Origin: Clostridia bacterium
GTDB lineage: Bacteria > Bacillota > Clostridia > Oscillospirales > CAG-272
Assembly: GCA_017463865.1 (NCBI GenBank)
Contig: JAFTOI010000003.1
Coordinates: 69,219-122,581 of the forward strand
Reading direction: 5' to 3'
Length of the DNA stretch: 53,363 nucleotides
How positions within the stretch are numbered: position 1 is the first letter of the stretch; each line of letters begins with the position of its first letter. Both the position numbers and the translations under genes were made by a program. Below, piece after piece: positions 3,412-45,041 of the stretch. A model generated the notes under the pieces. The model did not search any database. It saw only the letters and a list, made by a program, of their open reading frames with translations, and had not been told where the DNA came from.

Positions 3412-3979
3412 GCCGTTCAAGCTGCCGCCGGTCGAGCAGAGGCCTGCGATACCACAGCTCCCGTTCAATGGCAGTGCCGTTCTTGACAAAGGGTTCTCAT
3501 TTTCTTTTTCCTGCTTCGACCGAACACACGGCTTGTTCAATCTTGGTGACGACAGACACGGTGGCGTGGTCGGCGGCGACTGGTTCGTCGCGCTGCTCGA
3601 TTGCCTGAAAAGTGTGAGCGGAAAAACCATGCCGGAGTTAAAAAGTTCGTTACACGACTTGCACCCGGTCGATTGGGAACATGCCAATGCATCGCCACCG
3701 GGGAACAGCGAACAGTATCAGTATTGGCAATTCCGAATCGACAAATCAAATGGGCGCGTGATTGGCATCATCATTGACGGCGTGTTTTATGTGGTGTGGT
3801 TAGACCCTCACCACAATCTTACCGACAGCGTCGGATACGAAAAAGCATATTGGCATAGCCCTGCGCTGAGCCCGTATGAGAAGCAAGAACAGAGAATCGC
3901 CGCGCTTGAAAAAGAGGTCGCCAGATTAGCCGACGAGAATGCGGCTTGTCTATCGTTGCTGGAAGAAGCAACAAAATAA
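3389..3979 (+). CDS. Putative toxin partner of the Panacea gene
   Basis: 196 residues with two parts. An alpha/beta domain (about 30-155) contains LDCLKSVSGKTMPEL and, near its end, GRVIGIIIDGVFYVVWLDP. A charged coiled coil follows (about 165-196, EKQEQRIAALEKEVARL). The alpha/beta part resembles a group of uncharacterised proteins often found with Panacea antitoxins; a HigB/RelE-like RNase fold is possible but I cannot show catalytic residues. It has no good ribosome binding site and overlaps the upstream gene by 23 nt, so its translation is probably coupled. A terminator follows directly. Confidence 0.55.
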   Translation: MTKTKQIKPFKLPPVEQRPAIPQLPFNGSAVLDKGFSFSFSCFDRTHGLFNLGDDRHGGVVGGDWFVALLDCLKSVSGKTMPELKSSLHDLHPVDWEHANASPPGNSEQYQYWQFRIDKSNGRVIGIIIDGVFYVVWLDPHHNLTDSVGYEKAYWHSPALSPYEKQEQRIAALEKEVARLADENAACLSLLEEATK

Positions 3980-3991
3980 TTTCATCAGCCG

Positions 3992-4052
3992 CCCCACGGT
4001 AAGTAAGCCCTCCACTATCCGGAGAGTGCCGAATCCGTGGGGTATTTTTTTA
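3992..4052 (+). terminator. Terminator of the toxin-antitoxin operon
   Basis: Arms CCCCACGG (3992-3999) and CCGTGGGG (4035-4042) enclose a smaller CTCC/GGAG hairpin and are followed by TATTTTTTT. It overlaps the 3' end of the convergent Xre gene (4050). Confidence 0.75.
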
Positions 4053-4655
4053 CCACTTCAAGATCGGATTCGTCGGGAAGAAGATATTGAGGATCAGCAG
4101 GGCGACGAGGCAGATGGACATGACGCCGATGACGAGAAACAGGCGGTTGATGGTTTTCGCGCGGGCATCGATGATCTTCATCAGGTTATCGATGCGCTGC
4201 TGGTGGATGGCGTCTTTATCGGCAGACAGCTGGGCATAGTGCTCCTTATGCTGTTCGAGCATGCGATCAAAATGTGCCTTTTCGTCGGCGATGCGGGCCT
4301 CTGAGATGCGTTTGTACTCGGCGACACGGTTATTTGTGGTCTCGATGATATCCCGGCGGATCTCCTCGGTGTAAAATGCGAGAAATTCCTCTTGCATTGC
4401 TGCATGTTTGGGGCAATCGGTGCAATTATGGTCTGCATTGGCGCAAGAATTTGTTGCAGAGATGAGTCCGCAGGCTTCATCGATGCTGCCTCCGAGGGCG
4501 CGGATGACTTCTACGACGGTCGCATAGTCTACACTTTTGGCATCTCCTTTGAGCAGTCGTGAGACGGTTGACTCTGAGATACCACTCATGGATCCAATCT
4601 GCGCATTGGTCAAATTTCGTTGATTTTTCAGGGTTTTCAGGTACTCGGAGAGCAT
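4050..4655 (-). CDS. Membrane-anchored Xre-family regulator
   Basis: 201 residues. An N-terminal helix-turn-helix domain (about 1-60; LTNAQIGSMSGISESTVSRLL) is followed by a Cys cluster (NCTDCPKH), a long charged coiled coil (about 100-165) and one C-terminal transmembrane helix (LFLVIGVMSICLVALLIL). The domain order suggests a DNA-binding protein tethered to the membrane, possibly sensing an envelope or redox signal. I chose the ATG at 4655 because the helix-turn-helix begins there and an AAAGGA site precedes it. Two palindromic operators at 4681-4715 lie just upstream, between this gene and the divergent small genes, suggesting autoregulation. Confidence 0.75.
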   Translation of the reverse strand: MLSEYLKTLKNQRNLTNAQIGSMSGISESTVSRLLKGDAKSVDYATVVEVIRALGGSIDEACGLISATNSCANADHNCTDCPKHAAMQEEFLAFYTEEIRRDIIETTNNRVAEYKRISEARIADEKAHFDRMLEQHKEHYAQLSADKDAIHQQRIDNLMKIIDARAKTINRLFLVIGVMSICLVALLILNIFFPTNPILKW

Positions 4656-31274: not shown

Positions 31275-31306
31275 AAATAAGCCCCCGAAATGGGGGCTTA
31301 TTTAAT
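31275..31306. terminator. Bidirectional terminator between late genes and the minus-strand island
   Basis: AAATAAGCCCCC and GGGGGCTTATTT form a symmetric stem around a short loop, with A/T runs on both sides. It ends the tape-measure transcript from the left and the island transcript from the right. Confidence 0.85.
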
Positions 31307-32006
31307 CGAATGTGCTCTTACTTGATTGTGATACACCGCCGGAAATACTACTTCCTTTGGCTAATGTGAATTGTAATCCGTTGGGTGGGATGGTCATGGT
31401 ATCGACATAATAACTTGTACCGCCAACGAACCGATCGTTTTTACCATACCACTTGAAATCGTCTGTCAGATTTCCAATTGCATAGCATACCATATATTTC
31501 CCGCTTGGCACTGTGAATTCAGCGGTTGAATCCGGCCACATACATATCTCGAATAAGGTAGTATTGCCGTCTTCCGATTTGAACCTTATATAAAGGCAAT
31601 CGCTCCTCTGATTAGTAAATGAAAAATAGGCAGAACGAATGCACGGGGAGATAACTTCGAAGTTTCCGTTTTGTGGAAAGACTTCTGTCGGACGGCTTGT
31701 GCTTACAGAAGGCGTATCAACATTATCGTACATGCTAAAAAGCGCCAATCCGACGCCTAATACTGCGAATAATACCAGAACGCCAAACGCTTTTAGCAAG
31801 TCCAATATGTCTTTTGCCGGACTTTCCTTTGCCGGAATTTCCTTTTTTTTCGTATCATTCGAATGCGCAGTAGGCGATGTATGCAGTGGCTTCGTCTGGC
31901 GCTCATTCACAGGGAAAGGAGTCTTGCAAATTGGACATGTGTCACAAGCAAAATATGCTCCGCAATTCGGACATTTATTAACATATATTTTTCCGCTGTC
32001 AGCCAT
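31302..32006 (-). CDS. Zinc-ribbon single-pass membrane protein A
   Basis: 234 residues: N-terminal zinc ribbon (KCPNCGAYFACDTCPICKT), a polar linker, one transmembrane helix (about 68-90; AFGVLVLFAVLGVGLALFS) and a beta-rich outer domain (about 110-234; AYFSFTNQRSDCLYIRFKS, then VPSGKYMVCYAIGNL). The AT-rich composition differs from the flanking late genes. It shares its N-terminal zinc ribbon with the gene behind it and lies 26 nt from it on the same strand. Role unknown; surface exposure in the lysogen is inferred. Confidence 0.7.
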   Translation of the reverse strand: MADSGKIYVNKCPNCGAYFACDTCPICKTPFPVNERQTKPLHTSPTAHSNDTKKKEIPAKESPAKDILDLLKAFGVLVLFAVLGVGLALFSMYDNVDTPSVSTSRPTEVFPQNGNFEVISPCIRSAYFSFTNQRSDCLYIRFKSEDGNTTLFEICMWPDSTAEFTVPSGKYMVCYAIGNLTDDFKWYGKNDRFVGGTSYYVDTMTIPPNGLQFTLAKGSSISGGVSQSSKSTFD

Positions 32007-32032: not shown

Positions 32033-32971
32033 CTATTGAGCATTCACAAGATCAATACGATCAACTTTGATAAGCGGAATCGTGACTGTCGTACTCCAGA
32101 TAGATGTGTAGCTATGTAATCCATATACCGTGCCGTAGATAATCAACTTATCATCTTCGAGAATTCGCCCGTCAAATATATTGGGGTTAAAAACACAGTA
32201 TACCGTATCGGAAGAGTAATCTCCTGTTGAAAAACGCATTTGATTTTCGCTGGCGCTTACTTCGAGGATTTGCAATACCTTACCTTCAAATTTAACCTTT
32301 GATCCTTTATATTTTTCGGGATATCTGGCTATTTCCTCATAAGTAATACCTGTCTCATATCCCTTGGCCTCTTCCGCAAGTCGAGCTTCTTCTTCAGATG
32401 CTTTTCGTTCGGCTTCTATCCTCGCCTGTTCTTCTTTTTGCTTGCGAAGTTCTTCATCCGCCTTCATCTTGGCGGCTTCTGCCTCGGCTTTATCTGCCTC
32501 CGCCTGCGCAATCGCTGCAGCTTTTTGTGCCTCGTCGAGTTGTGAAAAACTATCCGCATCCTTCTTGAAATCGGCATATTCGTGCCGAACATCCGCAAGC
32601 TGCTGCCGAATTGTTTCCGCATTGTGCTCTGCGCTTGTGAGTTTCGCTTGCAAGCTATCGTTTTCGCCGCGTTGATCAGCATACAGAAGCACGGCCCCAT
32701 AAAGAATCACAGACAACGCAATATTCAGCAAAATAGACAGAACAAAGAATATAATCAGCGCAACCGGCTTTTTCGCCTTCTGCCGCACAATGACCGTCTG
32801 AGGCGCGGCGGCTTGCTTTACCCGTCTGTCTGCGCAAACCGTTTTGCAGATCGGGCATGTCGTTCCGTCAAACAGCGCGCCGCAATTCGGGCATTTATTC
32901 AGATTTGGGTTGTCGTAGTTGTTTCCGTCCGGCGAAAACACACCGATCTGAGGGGAACCAAATTTACCCAT
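32033..32971 (-). CDS. Zinc-ribbon membrane protein B with OB-fold-like outer domain
   Basis: 312 residues: zinc ribbon (KCPNCGALFDGTTCPICKT, about 25-45), a transmembrane helix (about 70-95; ALIIFFVLSILLNIALSVI), a long Lys/Glu/Ala coiled coil (about 105-215), and a C-terminal domain (about 225-312; YEEIARYPEKYKGSKVKFEG, DGRILEDDKLIIYGTVYGL) like OB-fold domains of Firmicutes surface proteins. I take the ATG at 32971, behind GGGAGG; upstream in-frame starts lie in the promoter. First gene behind the promoter at 32991-33019. Confidence 0.72.
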   Translation of the reverse strand: MGKFGSPQIGVFSPDGNNYDNPNLNKCPNCGALFDGTTCPICKTVCADRRVKQAAAPQTVIVRQKAKKPVALIIFFVLSILLNIALSVILYGAVLLYADQRGENDSLQAKLTSAEHNAETIRQQLADVRHEYADFKKDADSFSQLDEAQKAAAIAQAEADKAEAEAAKMKADEELRKQKEEQARIEAERKASEEEARLAEEAKGYETGITYEEIARYPEKYKGSKVKFEGKVLQILEVSASENQMRFSTGDYSSDTVYCVFNPNIFDGRILEDDKLIIYGTVYGLHSYTSIWSTTVTIPLIKVDRIDLVNAQ

Positions 32972-32990
32972 CACACATCCCTCCCGCCCC

Positions 32991-33019
32991 ATTATACACC
33001 AATCGCGGTGCGGTGTCAA
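32991..33019 (-). promoter_or_regulatory. Sigma-A promoter of the zinc-ribbon pair
   Basis: Minus-strand perfect TTGACA (33014-33019), 17-bp spacer and perfect TATAAT (32991-32996), only 20 nt ahead of the start at 32971. Confidence 0.88.
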
Positions 33020-33045: not shown

Positions 33046-33747
33046 TTAATACGCGTAAGGCAACCGCGTTAATACAAGCTGTTCTGTCGATAGGCTCGGC
33101 AGTTGCCCTGTGTTCGCAAGAAAATATACTCGATTCGCCACAATGTCTGCGGCTCGAATCAAAATTTTAGAAGATGAATTGCAAAATTCAAGTTTCACAG
33201 CACGCAAGTTTGGGAAAATGGGAGGATAAAAGGAAGAATAGTCCCGGTTATATGTACCGAGCCGGAATTCCTGCTCTAACGCCTCCCGCAACTCATAGAT
33301 ACCATTTGTCGCGGTGGTATGTTCGTCTACAAAGAAAAAGAGATATTCGACTTCGAGTGGGTTGATATAATTTTTCATAATCAGATACTGAAATTGTCGC
33401 TTGATCGCAATCTTGTAGGCATAGTCCAGATAGCGTTGTTTGTCCTTTTTGCTGGCAAAAATTCGCTCGAGAAGCTTGTCCTCATCGATTACTGCGCCGA
33501 ATTTATGGACGTTGTTCAACGAGTGATAAAGCTTGTTTTTACTTTTATTGGTGATCGTTGTGGCCTTCGCTTCGCAAGATGTATCGAGGCCTTCGGCCTG
33601 TCTTATTGTTTTTTCGATAGAAGAATAACGACGCGAACAAATGTCACGATCTTCACGGCTTAGAAACGTAACGCCACCAAACACATAGTATCGATTATGT
33701 ACCCGGTCAAATACGCCAGATTCATCGGAGTAGACAAAAATATTCAT
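33046..33747 (-). CDS. DUF3800-family protein
   Basis: 233 residues. It begins MNIFVYSDESGVFD, then YYVFGGVTF; a central YLFFFVDEHTTATNG and a C-terminal ILIRAADIVANRVYFL give the acidic positions characteristic of DUF3800, thought to have an RNase H-like core. Its activity is uncharacterised. The ATG at 33747 has AGGAGA upstream. It is preceded by a promoter, an RNA of about 98 nt and a terminator, so its mRNA must come from terminator readthrough or processing, as in RNA-antitoxin modules. AT-rich like the rest of the island. Confidence 0.8.
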   Translation of the reverse strand: MNIFVYSDESGVFDRVHNRYYVFGGVTFLSREDRDICSRRYSSIEKTIRQAEGLDTSCEAKATTITNKSKNKLYHSLNNVHKFGAVIDEDKLLERIFASKKDKQRYLDYAYKIAIKRQFQYLIMKNYINPLEVEYLFFFVDEHTTATNGIYELREALEQEFRLGTYNRDYSSFYPPIFPNLRAVKLEFCNSSSKILIRAADIVANRVYFLANTGQLPSLSTEQLVLTRLPYAY

Positions 33748-33767
33748 GGAATTGGATCTCCTGACAA

Positions 33768-33791
33768 AGAAAAAAGCCGCCCGAAGGCGGC
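33768..33791 (-). terminator. Terminator between leader RNA and the DUF3800 gene
   Basis: Minus-strand GCCGCC-TTCG-GGCGGC followed by six T, 20 nt ahead of the DUF3800 start. It should stop most transcripts from the promoter at 33872-33900. Confidence 0.88.
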
Positions 33792-33865
33792 CTCGCGGGT
33801 GGCGACAGTACATGCCGCTTAAGCGTTAACTCACTGACGCGAGTATGCAGCGCATTTCTGCCTGC
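33768..33865 (-). ncRNA. Structured leader RNA of the DUF3800 gene (candidate)
   Basis: Runs from a predicted start near 33865 to the terminator T-run. On the minus strand ACTC (33844-33841) pairs with GAGT (33832-33829) while GCGT (33840-33837) pairs with ACGC (33826-33823). These stems interlock as an H-type pseudoknot. A hairpin GCGGCA...TGTCGC and the terminator hairpin follow. RNA motifs found ahead of DUF3800 genes are already known as a group in Rfam; this one may be a member or a new variant. Function unproven. Confidence 0.65.
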
Positions 33866-33871
33866 AATTAT

Positions 33872-33900
33872 ATTATACGTAATTCTTATGAAAATGTCAA
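33872..33900 (-). promoter_or_regulatory. Sigma-A promoter of the DUF3800 leader RNA
   Basis: Minus-strand perfect TTGACA (33895-33900), 17 bp, perfect TATAAT (33872-33877). It lies only 22 bp beyond the stop of the small gene at 33923. Confidence 0.88.
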
Positions 33901-33922: not shown

Positions 33923-34102
33923 TTAATAATTTGTACCGCCGAAAATACTTTTGATCTGCTGCGAAGATGCGACCTGATAATTCGGCGTTTTCTCTGTATA
34001 GCCAGCAGAGCGTTTCTCGCTTCGCTCGACGGCACCGATTAAACGACTAACCGCACGTCTATCCTTGACGACAATATTTTTAAGCATACTTTTCGTTGCC
34101 AT
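33923..34102 (-). CDS. Small protein associated with the DUF3800 gene
   Basis: 59 residues: ATKSMLKNIVVKDRRAVSR, then LIGAVERSEKRSAGYTEKT and a C-terminal QIKSIFGG. Small proteins of this shape occur beside DUF3800 genes in other Firmicutes, so it may be a partner; the link is from memory of gene neighbourhoods and not proven here. GAGGTGATA precedes the ATG at 34102. It has its own promoter (34146-34175). Confidence 0.6.
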   Translation of the reverse strand: MATKSMLKNIVVKDRRAVSRLIGAVERSEKRSAGYTEKTPNYQVASSQQIKSIFGGTNY

Positions 34103-34145
34103 CGTTATCACCTCACTATCATACTATGCGCAACTTAGCATCTTG

Positions 34146-42602: not shown

Positions 42603-42624
42603 CTGGCGGAGAAGCAGAGATTCG
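42602..42624. other. attR core within tRNA-Ser
   Basis: The same 23 bp as 1615-1637; it covers the tRNA 3' acceptor strand, T-arm 3' half and encoded CCA. Integration here leaves the tRNA intact. Confidence 0.92.
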
Positions 42625-42695
42625 AACTCTGGAGGCGCTTTTAACGCCTACACGATTTCCAGTCGTGCGCCCTCGACCAACTAGGCGACTTCTCC
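42604..42695 (-). tRNA. tRNA-Ser(GGA)
   Basis: A 92-nt minus-strand gene including CCA. Acceptor stem GGAGAAG / CTTCTCC, anticodon loop CTGGAAA with anticodon GGA (42658-42660), long serine-type variable arm (around GGCGTTAAAAGCGCC) and T-loop TTCGAAT. The CCA is encoded (42604-42606), and its 3' part is provided by the attachment core. It reads UCC/UCU serine codons. Confidence 0.97.
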
Positions 42696-43889: not shown

Positions 43890-45041
43890 ATGAACATCAT
43901 CAACCTTCGCGCCAATCGGCGCATCCTTGCGGCTGCGGCGGCGCTGCTGCTCGGCGCCGTTTCGCTTACCAGCTGCGGCCAGGCAAGCGGCGACAACGAC
44001 ACACCGCTGGCGCTTGACCCCGACAACCCCAGCCTTATCGCCGGTGAGAAGAAGATCTCCACCGACCCCTTCATTTACTGGGAGGAGGATCTCACCCCCT
44101 ATGTCACGCTGGGCAATTACAAGGACATCCCCGCCACCTGCACCTCGGCCGTCCTGACCGACGCCGAGTTTGAGGAGCAGATCCAGGTGCTGCTCGAATA
44201 CTACGCCGAGCCGGTGCAGATCACCGACCGCGCTGCGGCTGAGGGCGACACCTGCAACTTCGACTACAGCGGCTTTGTCGACGGCGTGCAGTTCGACGGC
44301 GGCACAGCCGCCGGTCAGACCATCACCCTGACCGGCAACGGCGGCTTCATCGAGGGCTTTGTCCCCGCCATCATCGGCAAGAAGCCGGGCGAGTCCTTCG
44401 ACATCGTGACCACCTTCCCTGCCGACTACGGCGTGGAATCGCTCAACGGCAAGGAGGCCACCTTCAAGTGTACCCTCAACTACATCGAGGGCGAGGCAAT
44501 CCTGCCCGAGTTCAACGATGAATTCGCGAAGGAGATCTCCGAATTCGACACCGCCGAGGCCCTGCGCGCCGATCTGCGCGCCTCGCTGGAGGAGGAAAAG
44601 GCCGCGCAGGCCGAGAACCAGCTGTACAGCGATATCTGGACGCAGGTCGTGGCCAACGCCACCATCCATCAGTACCCCGAGGACAAGGTCACCTATATTT
44701 ATCAGCAGTATGTGACAGAGTACGGCTCCTACGCCGCGATGGCTTACGGCGTGACCTACGAGGAATACCTCAACATGATGGGCGCCAGCGACGAGCAGGT
44801 CAGACAGATGGCGCGCGATCAGGTCAAGGAAGATCTGATTTTCTACGCCATCACGCAGGCTGAGAACATCACCGTCAGCGATGCGGAATATGAAGCTGAA
44901 CTGCCCACCTTCGCCGAGGCCTTCGGCATGGAAGCCGAGGCACTGGTCGAGCAGTACGGCGAGGAGGCTATCCGCGACGGCATCCTCTGGAACAAGACGC
45001 AGGATCTGATCGTCTCCTGGGCGAAGATCACGGAGGCATAA
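43890..45041 (+). CDS. Trigger-factor-like peptidyl-prolyl isomerase lipoprotein
   Basis: 383 residues. A lipoprotein signal with lipobox LTSC (C29) anchors it outside the membrane. An FKBP-type domain (about 115-200; GDTCNFDYSGFVDGVQFDGG, GFIEGFVPAIIGKKPGE) is followed by the long helical trigger-factor C-terminal domain (about 205-383). Secreted relatives are common in Clostridia and are thought to help fold exported proteins. AAAAGGA precedes the ATG at 43890. Single gene with terminator behind. Confidence 0.9.
   Translation: MNIINLRANRRILAAAAALLLGAVSLTSCGQASGDNDTPLALDPDNPSLIAGEKKISTDPFIYWEEDLTPYVTLGNYKDIPATCTSAVLTDAEFEEQIQVLLEYYAEPVQITDRAAAEGDTCNFDYSGFVDGVQFDGGTAAGQTITLTGNGGFIEGFVPAIIGKKPGESFDIVTTFPADYGVESLNGKEATFKCTLNYIEGEAILPEFNDEFAKEISEFDTAEALRADLRASLEEEKAAQAENQLYSDIWTQVVANATIHQYPEDKVTYIYQQYVTEYGSYAAMAYGVTYEEYLNMMGASDEQVRQMARDQVKEDLIFYAITQAENITVSDAEYEAELPTFAEAFGMEAEALVEQYGEEAIRDGILWNKTQDLIVSWAKITEA

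Follow-up and report, generated by a model that had tools for sequence, protein, structure and literature searches.

The locus and its prophage setting

The window (the whole stretch of 53,363 nucleotides analysed here, from a Clostridia bacterium) contains a gene of the DUF3800 family, and a small RNA is encoded ahead of it on the same strand. The features of the locus are:

33872..33900, minus strand: sigma-A type promoter of the RNA, TTGACA-17-TATAAT (-35 at 33900-33895, -10 at 33877-33872), 12 of 12 consensus letters
33766..33872, minus strand: DUF3800-I RNA (RF02969), matched over the whole model with 98.6 bits
33846..33866, minus strand: P1, the 5' hairpin of the RNA (Rfam alignment; covariation)
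33792..33843, minus strand: P2 outer stem, CUCGCG:CGCGAG, around a three-way junction with the small hairpin P3 and the hairpin P4 (Rfam alignment; covariation)
33770..33791, minus strand: intrinsic terminator, GCCGCC-UUCG-GGCGGC-UUUUUU (sequence and Rfam alignment)
33046..33747, minus strand: DUF3800 gene, 233 aa, predicted nuclease resembling type-2 RNase H (PF12686; structure model; Foldseek)

The perfect sigma-A promoter described in an earlier note on this DNA was confirmed, and the coordinates given there are correct for promoter plus RNA. The RNA would be about 98 nt long, with a putative start near 33866, and its GC-rich hairpin and U-run end near 33770. This terminator, which had also been noted shortly before the DUF3800 start, lies 22 nt from the start codon; the spacer includes an AGGAG, and the ATG is at 33747 on the minus strand.

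The neighbouring genes include terminase, portal, major head, tape-measure and tail genes, together with an endolysin-like gene on the plus strand. Because phage structural genes surround both the RNA and the DUF3800 gene, the pair is regarded as a prophage cassette; it lies in the tail module of the prophage and is oriented against the tail genes. A tRNA is located at 42607-42695 of the window, and a trigger-factor gene at 43890. Two further minus-strand ORFs 3' of the DUF3800 gene (31302-32006 and 32033-33019) also run against the tail genes. Both open with a zinc-ribbon-like CPNCG...CPIC motif and gave no Pfam match to E 0.01. The PADLOC matches of the neighbour gene 32036-32971 (best LmuB, E 3.6e-6) are probably coiled-coil matches and were set aside. 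Directly upstream of the RNA promoter is a small ORF (33923-34111, minus strand, 59-62 aa), with weak PHROGs matches to function-unassigned families.

RNA family and secondary structure

A check with the Rfam covariance models identified the RNA as DUF3800-I: RF02969 matched 33766-33872 of the minus strand from model position 1 to 115, with 98.6 bits against a curated cut-off of 44.2 (E 1.2e-14). Since this match covers the full length of the model, the RNA family is one already catalogued; the DUF3800-I RNA was reportedly described by Weinberg et al. in 2017. Folding of 33765-33870 gave -43.3 kcal/mol (z -2.82), and 3 of 200 shuffled sequences folded equally well.

The Rfam structure was well supported by the alignments. 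Aligned with MAFFT, 14 relatives gave standard pairs in 97.6% of the cells and two-sided change in 14 of the 27 pairs; slid partners, used as control, paired in only 23-45%. The 48 matches aligned to model R1, which was built in this analysis and to which their alignment is fitted, gave 95.8% of cells paired, two-sided change in 18 of the 27 pairs, and slid controls of 28-36%. These 48 rows include a doubtful second match in L114 (3873-3967, 25.7 bits), which did not fit the conserved core and was rejected as a second RNA; it was counted in the pairing figures and excluded from the distance-correlation and letter-conservation analyses. All six pairs of the P2 outer stem showed two-sided change. 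The near-invariant letters are located at the base of P1 (CAG:CUG) and in the three-way junction (GA, UUAAGCG and CG.C), and to judge by this conservation they look like a binding surface. Beyond position 6, conservation is similar at the 21 unpaired positions and at the paired ones; the UUAA does not vary at all, and strong variation, including variation in length, is confined to the tip of P1. A guide RNA with a variable spacer was considered and rejected, as the aligned relatives contained no long variable unpaired stretch. No direct repeats of at least 8 bases were found within 33766-33880, in agreement with the earlier observation that the RNA has no obvious tandem repeat.

The H-type pseudoknot proposed earlier (ACTC:GAGT and GCGT:ACGC) was not supported. 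Among the 48 matches 64.3% of its cells were paired, against 95.8% for the Rfam structure; on several measures the pseudoknot was slightly above the shuffles (2 of 500 reached as much by cells paired and 6 of 500 by score). The tests covered the two stems as proposed. Their 5' strands fall inside the 5' strand of the conserved outer stem, whose partner is the downstream CGCGAG. In the 14 close relatives, stem 1 had 67.9% of its cells paired, and its second pair was standard in 2 of 14 rows; stem 2 had 85.7% paired, with no two-sided change. A covariation check on both stems together gave 76.8% paired in these 14 rows, no better than the shuffles. The proposed pseudoknot is therefore taken for what appears to be a local coincidence of the sequence.

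The DUF3800 protein

The only Pfam match of the gene product was PF12686 (DUF3800), with 44.3 bits against a gathering threshold of 21. An AlphaFold2 model made with ten relatives had a pLDDT of 88.3 and a pTM of 0.87. In a Foldseek search against the PDB, the best 25 of 251 matches were all RNase HII, H2 or HIII entries; the best one had an E of 1.1e-5, a query TM of 0.50, an rmsd of 7.1 and 17% identity, and 13 matches had E up to 0.001. No titles of type III toxins were seen among the best 50 of the 251 matches. A viral fold library gave another DUF3800 protein as top match (E 7.6e-6) and little else. No relative by sequence was found among solved structures, and PADLOC gave no match for the protein. 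Four acidic residues (D8, E59, D141 and D201) were kept in 45 of 45 aligned rows, and the DESG on the first strand may correspond to the DEAG of RNase HII.

RNase H-type folds also occur in RNA-guided effectors. According to the available part of one report, an AlphaFold model of another DUF3800 protein has an RNase H fold with catalytic rearrangement, and DUF3800 is associated with putative ncRNAs (PMC10910872). The RNase H-type model, the conserved acidic residues and this published model together make it likely that the DUF3800 protein is a nuclease.

Two rival explanations of the RNA draw on this predicted fold. The RNA might be a scaffold or cofactor that activates the nuclease in an RNP effector, possibly an anti-phage RNP. 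This is the main rival of an antitoxin role, and we consider it a serious but unlikely one. The occurrence of RNase H-type folds in RNA-guided effectors counts in its favour. So does the description of DUF3800 proteins as companions of Cas12a2 and type VI-F loci (PMC10910872, PMC12669027). Against it, the RNA has no long variable unpaired stretch to serve as guide. Alternatively, the RNA might be a substrate or product of the nuclease, in self-processing or autoregulation, with no antitoxin function. The fold of the model is compatible with this explanation, and ToxN is described in part of another report as cutting its own antitoxin RNA (PMC12373285); however, the RNA lacks repeat units that could be cut apart, and we regard the explanation as highly improbable.

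Association of the RNA with the gene

Searches by protein and by RNA both suggest that the two belong together. With the window protein as sole query, the RNA was present at 3 of 3 viral loci. Among phage and plasmid records, nine of the ten with a relative were examined (H3 was left out), with relatives reaching down to 25% protein identity. Seven of the nine carry RF02969 over the cut-off; the remaining two are L171, with 41.2 bits, and L172, with a partial match of 14.5 bits. A ten-row alignment as query (A1) gave 50 viral loci, and model R1 detected a same-strand RNA beside the gene at 49 of them (33 with the RNA 5' and 16 with it 3'), a figure that includes four loci with broken genes (L119, L161, L162 and L163). 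Six of the ten A1 rows came from loci found by the RNA pattern, so that the figure of 49 of 50 depends in part on the RNA itself. It also counts loci rather than independent events, because loci overlap between searches; the contigs of L116, L119, L125, L139 and most of L150-L163 had already been sampled. At the 50th locus, L144, the gene starts at the contig end. The weakest of the 49 is L146, with 24.7 bits by R1 and below the Rfam cut-off, though its gene is close.

Genome sets gave a similar picture; scans of more than 40 genomes used stricter filters, by which weak matches are lost. A scan of 391 genomes of the class recovered the RNA from 7 genomes, 6 of them with a match over the cut-off. 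The protein was found in 4 genomes of this set; each of the 4 carries the RNA, and in one of them the gene is broken. Among 345 genomes from the order to which an Enterococcus genome belongs, 8 have the RNA (7 over the cut-off) and 8 have the protein. Six of these proteins are close and have the RNA after the gene, and two are distant (80.7 and 49.3 bits) and have no RNA. Taking both sets together, the RNA lies beside 9 of 9 intact close genes (at least 213 bits). Wherever an intact close gene had room on both sides, at least a trace of the RNA was seen. Of the 52 genome stretches from an RNA pattern scan, many appear to match by chance; 13 of them and five viral loci were compared with Rfam, and 14 of these 18 carry RF02969.

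Moreover, the distances between RNAs and between proteins are correlated in the clade with the RNA 5' of the gene (28 rows, Mantel r 0.478, 0 of 2000 permutations); the correlation is not significant in the clade with the RNA 3' (6 rows, 319 of 2000). The near-constant adjacency, the covarying RNA, the correlated distances and a promoter mostly kept with the RNA agree with the earlier proposal that RNA and protein form one functional unit. The opposite case, in which such DUF3800 genes would mostly be without the RNA, was not found, although the two distant genes have none. On this comparative evidence, it is well supported that the RNA and DUF3800 act as one unit.

Position of the RNA relative to the gene

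A tree of 42 proteins was reconstructed after four rows had been dropped (the near copies L140, L164 and L169, and L167, whose gene is in two pieces). The RNA is 5' of the gene for 31 proteins and 3' for 11, and a single change of side (support 100/99) explains the distribution; none of 500 shuffles required as few. The 3' clade includes Enterococcus, Ligilactobacillus, Exiguobacterium and the Streptococcus phage Javan110. The side is not set by the host alone; for example, Lactobacillus gasseri and a Streptococcus satellite phage have the RNA 5'. The order described earlier, with the RNA first and a terminator separating it from the gene, thus holds for the window clade (31 proteins), and does not apply to the sister clade (11 proteins), where the RNA comes after the gene.

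For the most part, the promoter moves with the RNA. A -10/-35 pair with at least 9 of 12 consensus letters is present at a fixed place relative to the RNA in 26 of 33 cases with the RNA 5' and in 7 of 11 with the RNA 3', whereas 1.5-2.5% of shuffled upstream sequences reach the same criterion. A search for the gene's own promoter in the 3' clade gave nothing clearly above the shuffles.

These data bear on a third explanation, in which the RNA is a cis-acting leader that responds to some signal by regulating termination ahead of DUF3800. The window clade has its terminator 22 nt from the start codon, so that read-through is the evident route to transcription of the gene, and the RNA may also act in cis in the 5' clade. 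A leader role cannot be general, because 11 of the 42 tree proteins, those of the sister clade, have the RNA 3' of the gene, mostly with its own promoter. The classification of the DUF3800-I RNA as an sRNA gene in Rfam and the existence of RNAs without a gene also argue against a leader, which we judge to be very unlikely as the main function. As an RNA 3' of the gene cannot be its leader, action in trans would be the simplest common function; the same adjacency and trans evidence apply equally to an RNA that activates the nuclease.

In four plasmid records of the 3' type (L168-L171), the gene comes after holin and lysin genes, which is a usual place for lysogenic-conversion genes. In Streptococcus phage Javan110 (L165:1619-2681), where the RNA comes after the gene, a gene annotated as a Cro/CI-type regulator overlaps the DUF3800 start; it is possibly an extra regulator.

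RNAs without a gene and broken genes

The RNA was found without the gene at seven loci (L021, L035, L041, L069, L086, L088 and L097), according to tblastn with 15 relatives, and 3 of the 13 genomes with the RNA over the cut-off in the 391 and 345 genome sets lack the gene. A profile search of the seven genomes or records gave no match in six and a distant 37.4-bit match for L021; by Pfam, the genome of L035 has a distant DUF3800 in a 413-aa frame. The solo RNA of L069 is preceded by a phage amidase gene and that of L035 by a VapE-like gene, and the one of L041 is followed by a terminase gene. Four of the seven retain the promoter at its fixed place; L086, L088 and L097 lack it and may be relics. 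The solo RNAs of L041, L021 and L086 are near contig ends, and contig ends together with incomplete MAGs weaken some of these cases. Separately, the solo RNA at L069 is followed by an ORF of 171 aa (3821-4333), which is unrelated and has no Pfam match over the cut-off; it could be a different partner of the RNA.

At seven other loci (L004, L044, L052, L085, L072, L075 and L080) the gene is broken and the RNA is kept. In the Enterococcus-type prophages L072, L075 and L080, transposase-like genes of different kinds, named by eye, interrupt the DUF3800 gene (L072:8077-9288, L075:2021-2974 and L080:2076-4507); the insertion sites differ, and the RNA is retained each time. Some of the broken genes may be sequencing errors, and a gene of 690 bp is an easier target for insertions than an RNA of 100 nt. 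Read from these sequences, such a one-way dependence would be the relic pattern expected of a toxin with its antitoxin, and the numbers are small. The RNAs without a protein count against an activating RNA, and those that still bear a promoter would be left unexplained if the RNA were a substrate or product of the nuclease.

Proposed mechanism and comparison with known systems

We somewhat favour a prophage-borne RNA-protein module of two parts, in which the RNA restrains an RNase HII-like nuclease in trans. The module would be a lysogenic-conversion ('moron') cassette of the prophage, and the RNA would form a separate transcription unit with its promoter, about 98 nt and a terminator. The RNA would bind the DUF3800 nuclease in trans and keep it in check. 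In the window clade, terminator read-through would allow expression of the gene, and because the gene would be transcribed by this read-through, the RNA should be in excess; in the sister clade, the RNA would be made from its own promoter directly after the gene. If the RNA ran short, either because another phage shut off its supply or because the prophage was lost, the nuclease would be released and arrest growth. This might protect the lysogen or stabilise the prophage.

Among tested systems, AbiF and its RNA RCd22 (RF03085) from a C. difficile prophage come closest, the likeness being one of anatomy. In the available part of the report, RCd22 neutralises AbiF in trans through direct binding, and the locus has a SigA promoter, an RNA of about 100 nt, a terminator and a toxin made by read-through (PMC12373285); the same order is here read from the sequence. 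Both are prophage cargo, and in some prophages AbiF is next to lysis genes (PMC12373285). The abiF RNA, like the DUF3800-I RNA, comes from the 2017 survey. The differences, as far as that description extends, are that AbiF is a HEPN protein whereas DUF3800 has an RNase H-type fold, and that RCd22 has two repeated motifs whereas the DUF3800-I RNA has no repeat; an RNA-after-gene arrangement is not mentioned in the part available (PMC12373285). By analogy with AbiF, the RNA is most likely a trans-acting antitoxin or an RNP partner of the nuclease.

The type III toxin-antitoxin systems (ToxIN, AbiQ, TenpNI and CptNI) also combine an RNA with a nuclease gene and a terminator between them, as in the window clade. 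However, the DUF3800-I loci have no tandem repeats, an unsupported proposed pseudoknot, another protein fold and a variable gene order. The module is therefore not type III by the features tested, on account of the repeats, the pseudoknot and the fold. An RNA antitoxin similar to those of type III remains the leading reading and a plausible one, for which we infer toxicity and binding.

The DUF3800 proteins that accompany V-A2 and VI-F CRISPR loci belong to the same family and have the RNase H fold, in the parts of those reports available (PMC10910872, PMC12669027); unlike them, the gene studied here belongs to a stand-alone prophage cassette with its own RNA. A more speculative extension, which we hold to be rather doubtful, has three parts: the DUF3800-I loci would form another kind of RNA-protein module, for toxin-antitoxin function or abortive infection, with an RNase HII-fold toxin; the solo RNAs on phage- or satellite-like contigs (L069, L041 and L035) would be neutralising mimics directed against a resident prophage module; and CRISPR V-A2 and VI-F loci would have recruited nucleases of this same family. 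RNA mimicry is known to defeat ToxIN, according to the available part of one report (PMC3475682).

With respect to the window element itself, the match to RF02969 covers the whole model, structure and gene neighbour are alike, and no difference was found. The RNA is thus a catalogued family, and novelty would lie in the kind of system. DUF3800-linked RNAs have no established function in the parts of the literature covered, and a search by titles and abstract openings found no paper on the stand-alone DUF3800 RNA-gene pair. Taken together, the switch of side, the promoter at a constant position and the dependence in one direction lead to a testable claim, namely that the RNA is a trans-acting partner of an RNase H-type nuclease. 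If true, this would add a new toxin fold to the RNA-neutralised systems, and would link prophage cargo to a nuclease family that is also present in CRISPR loci.
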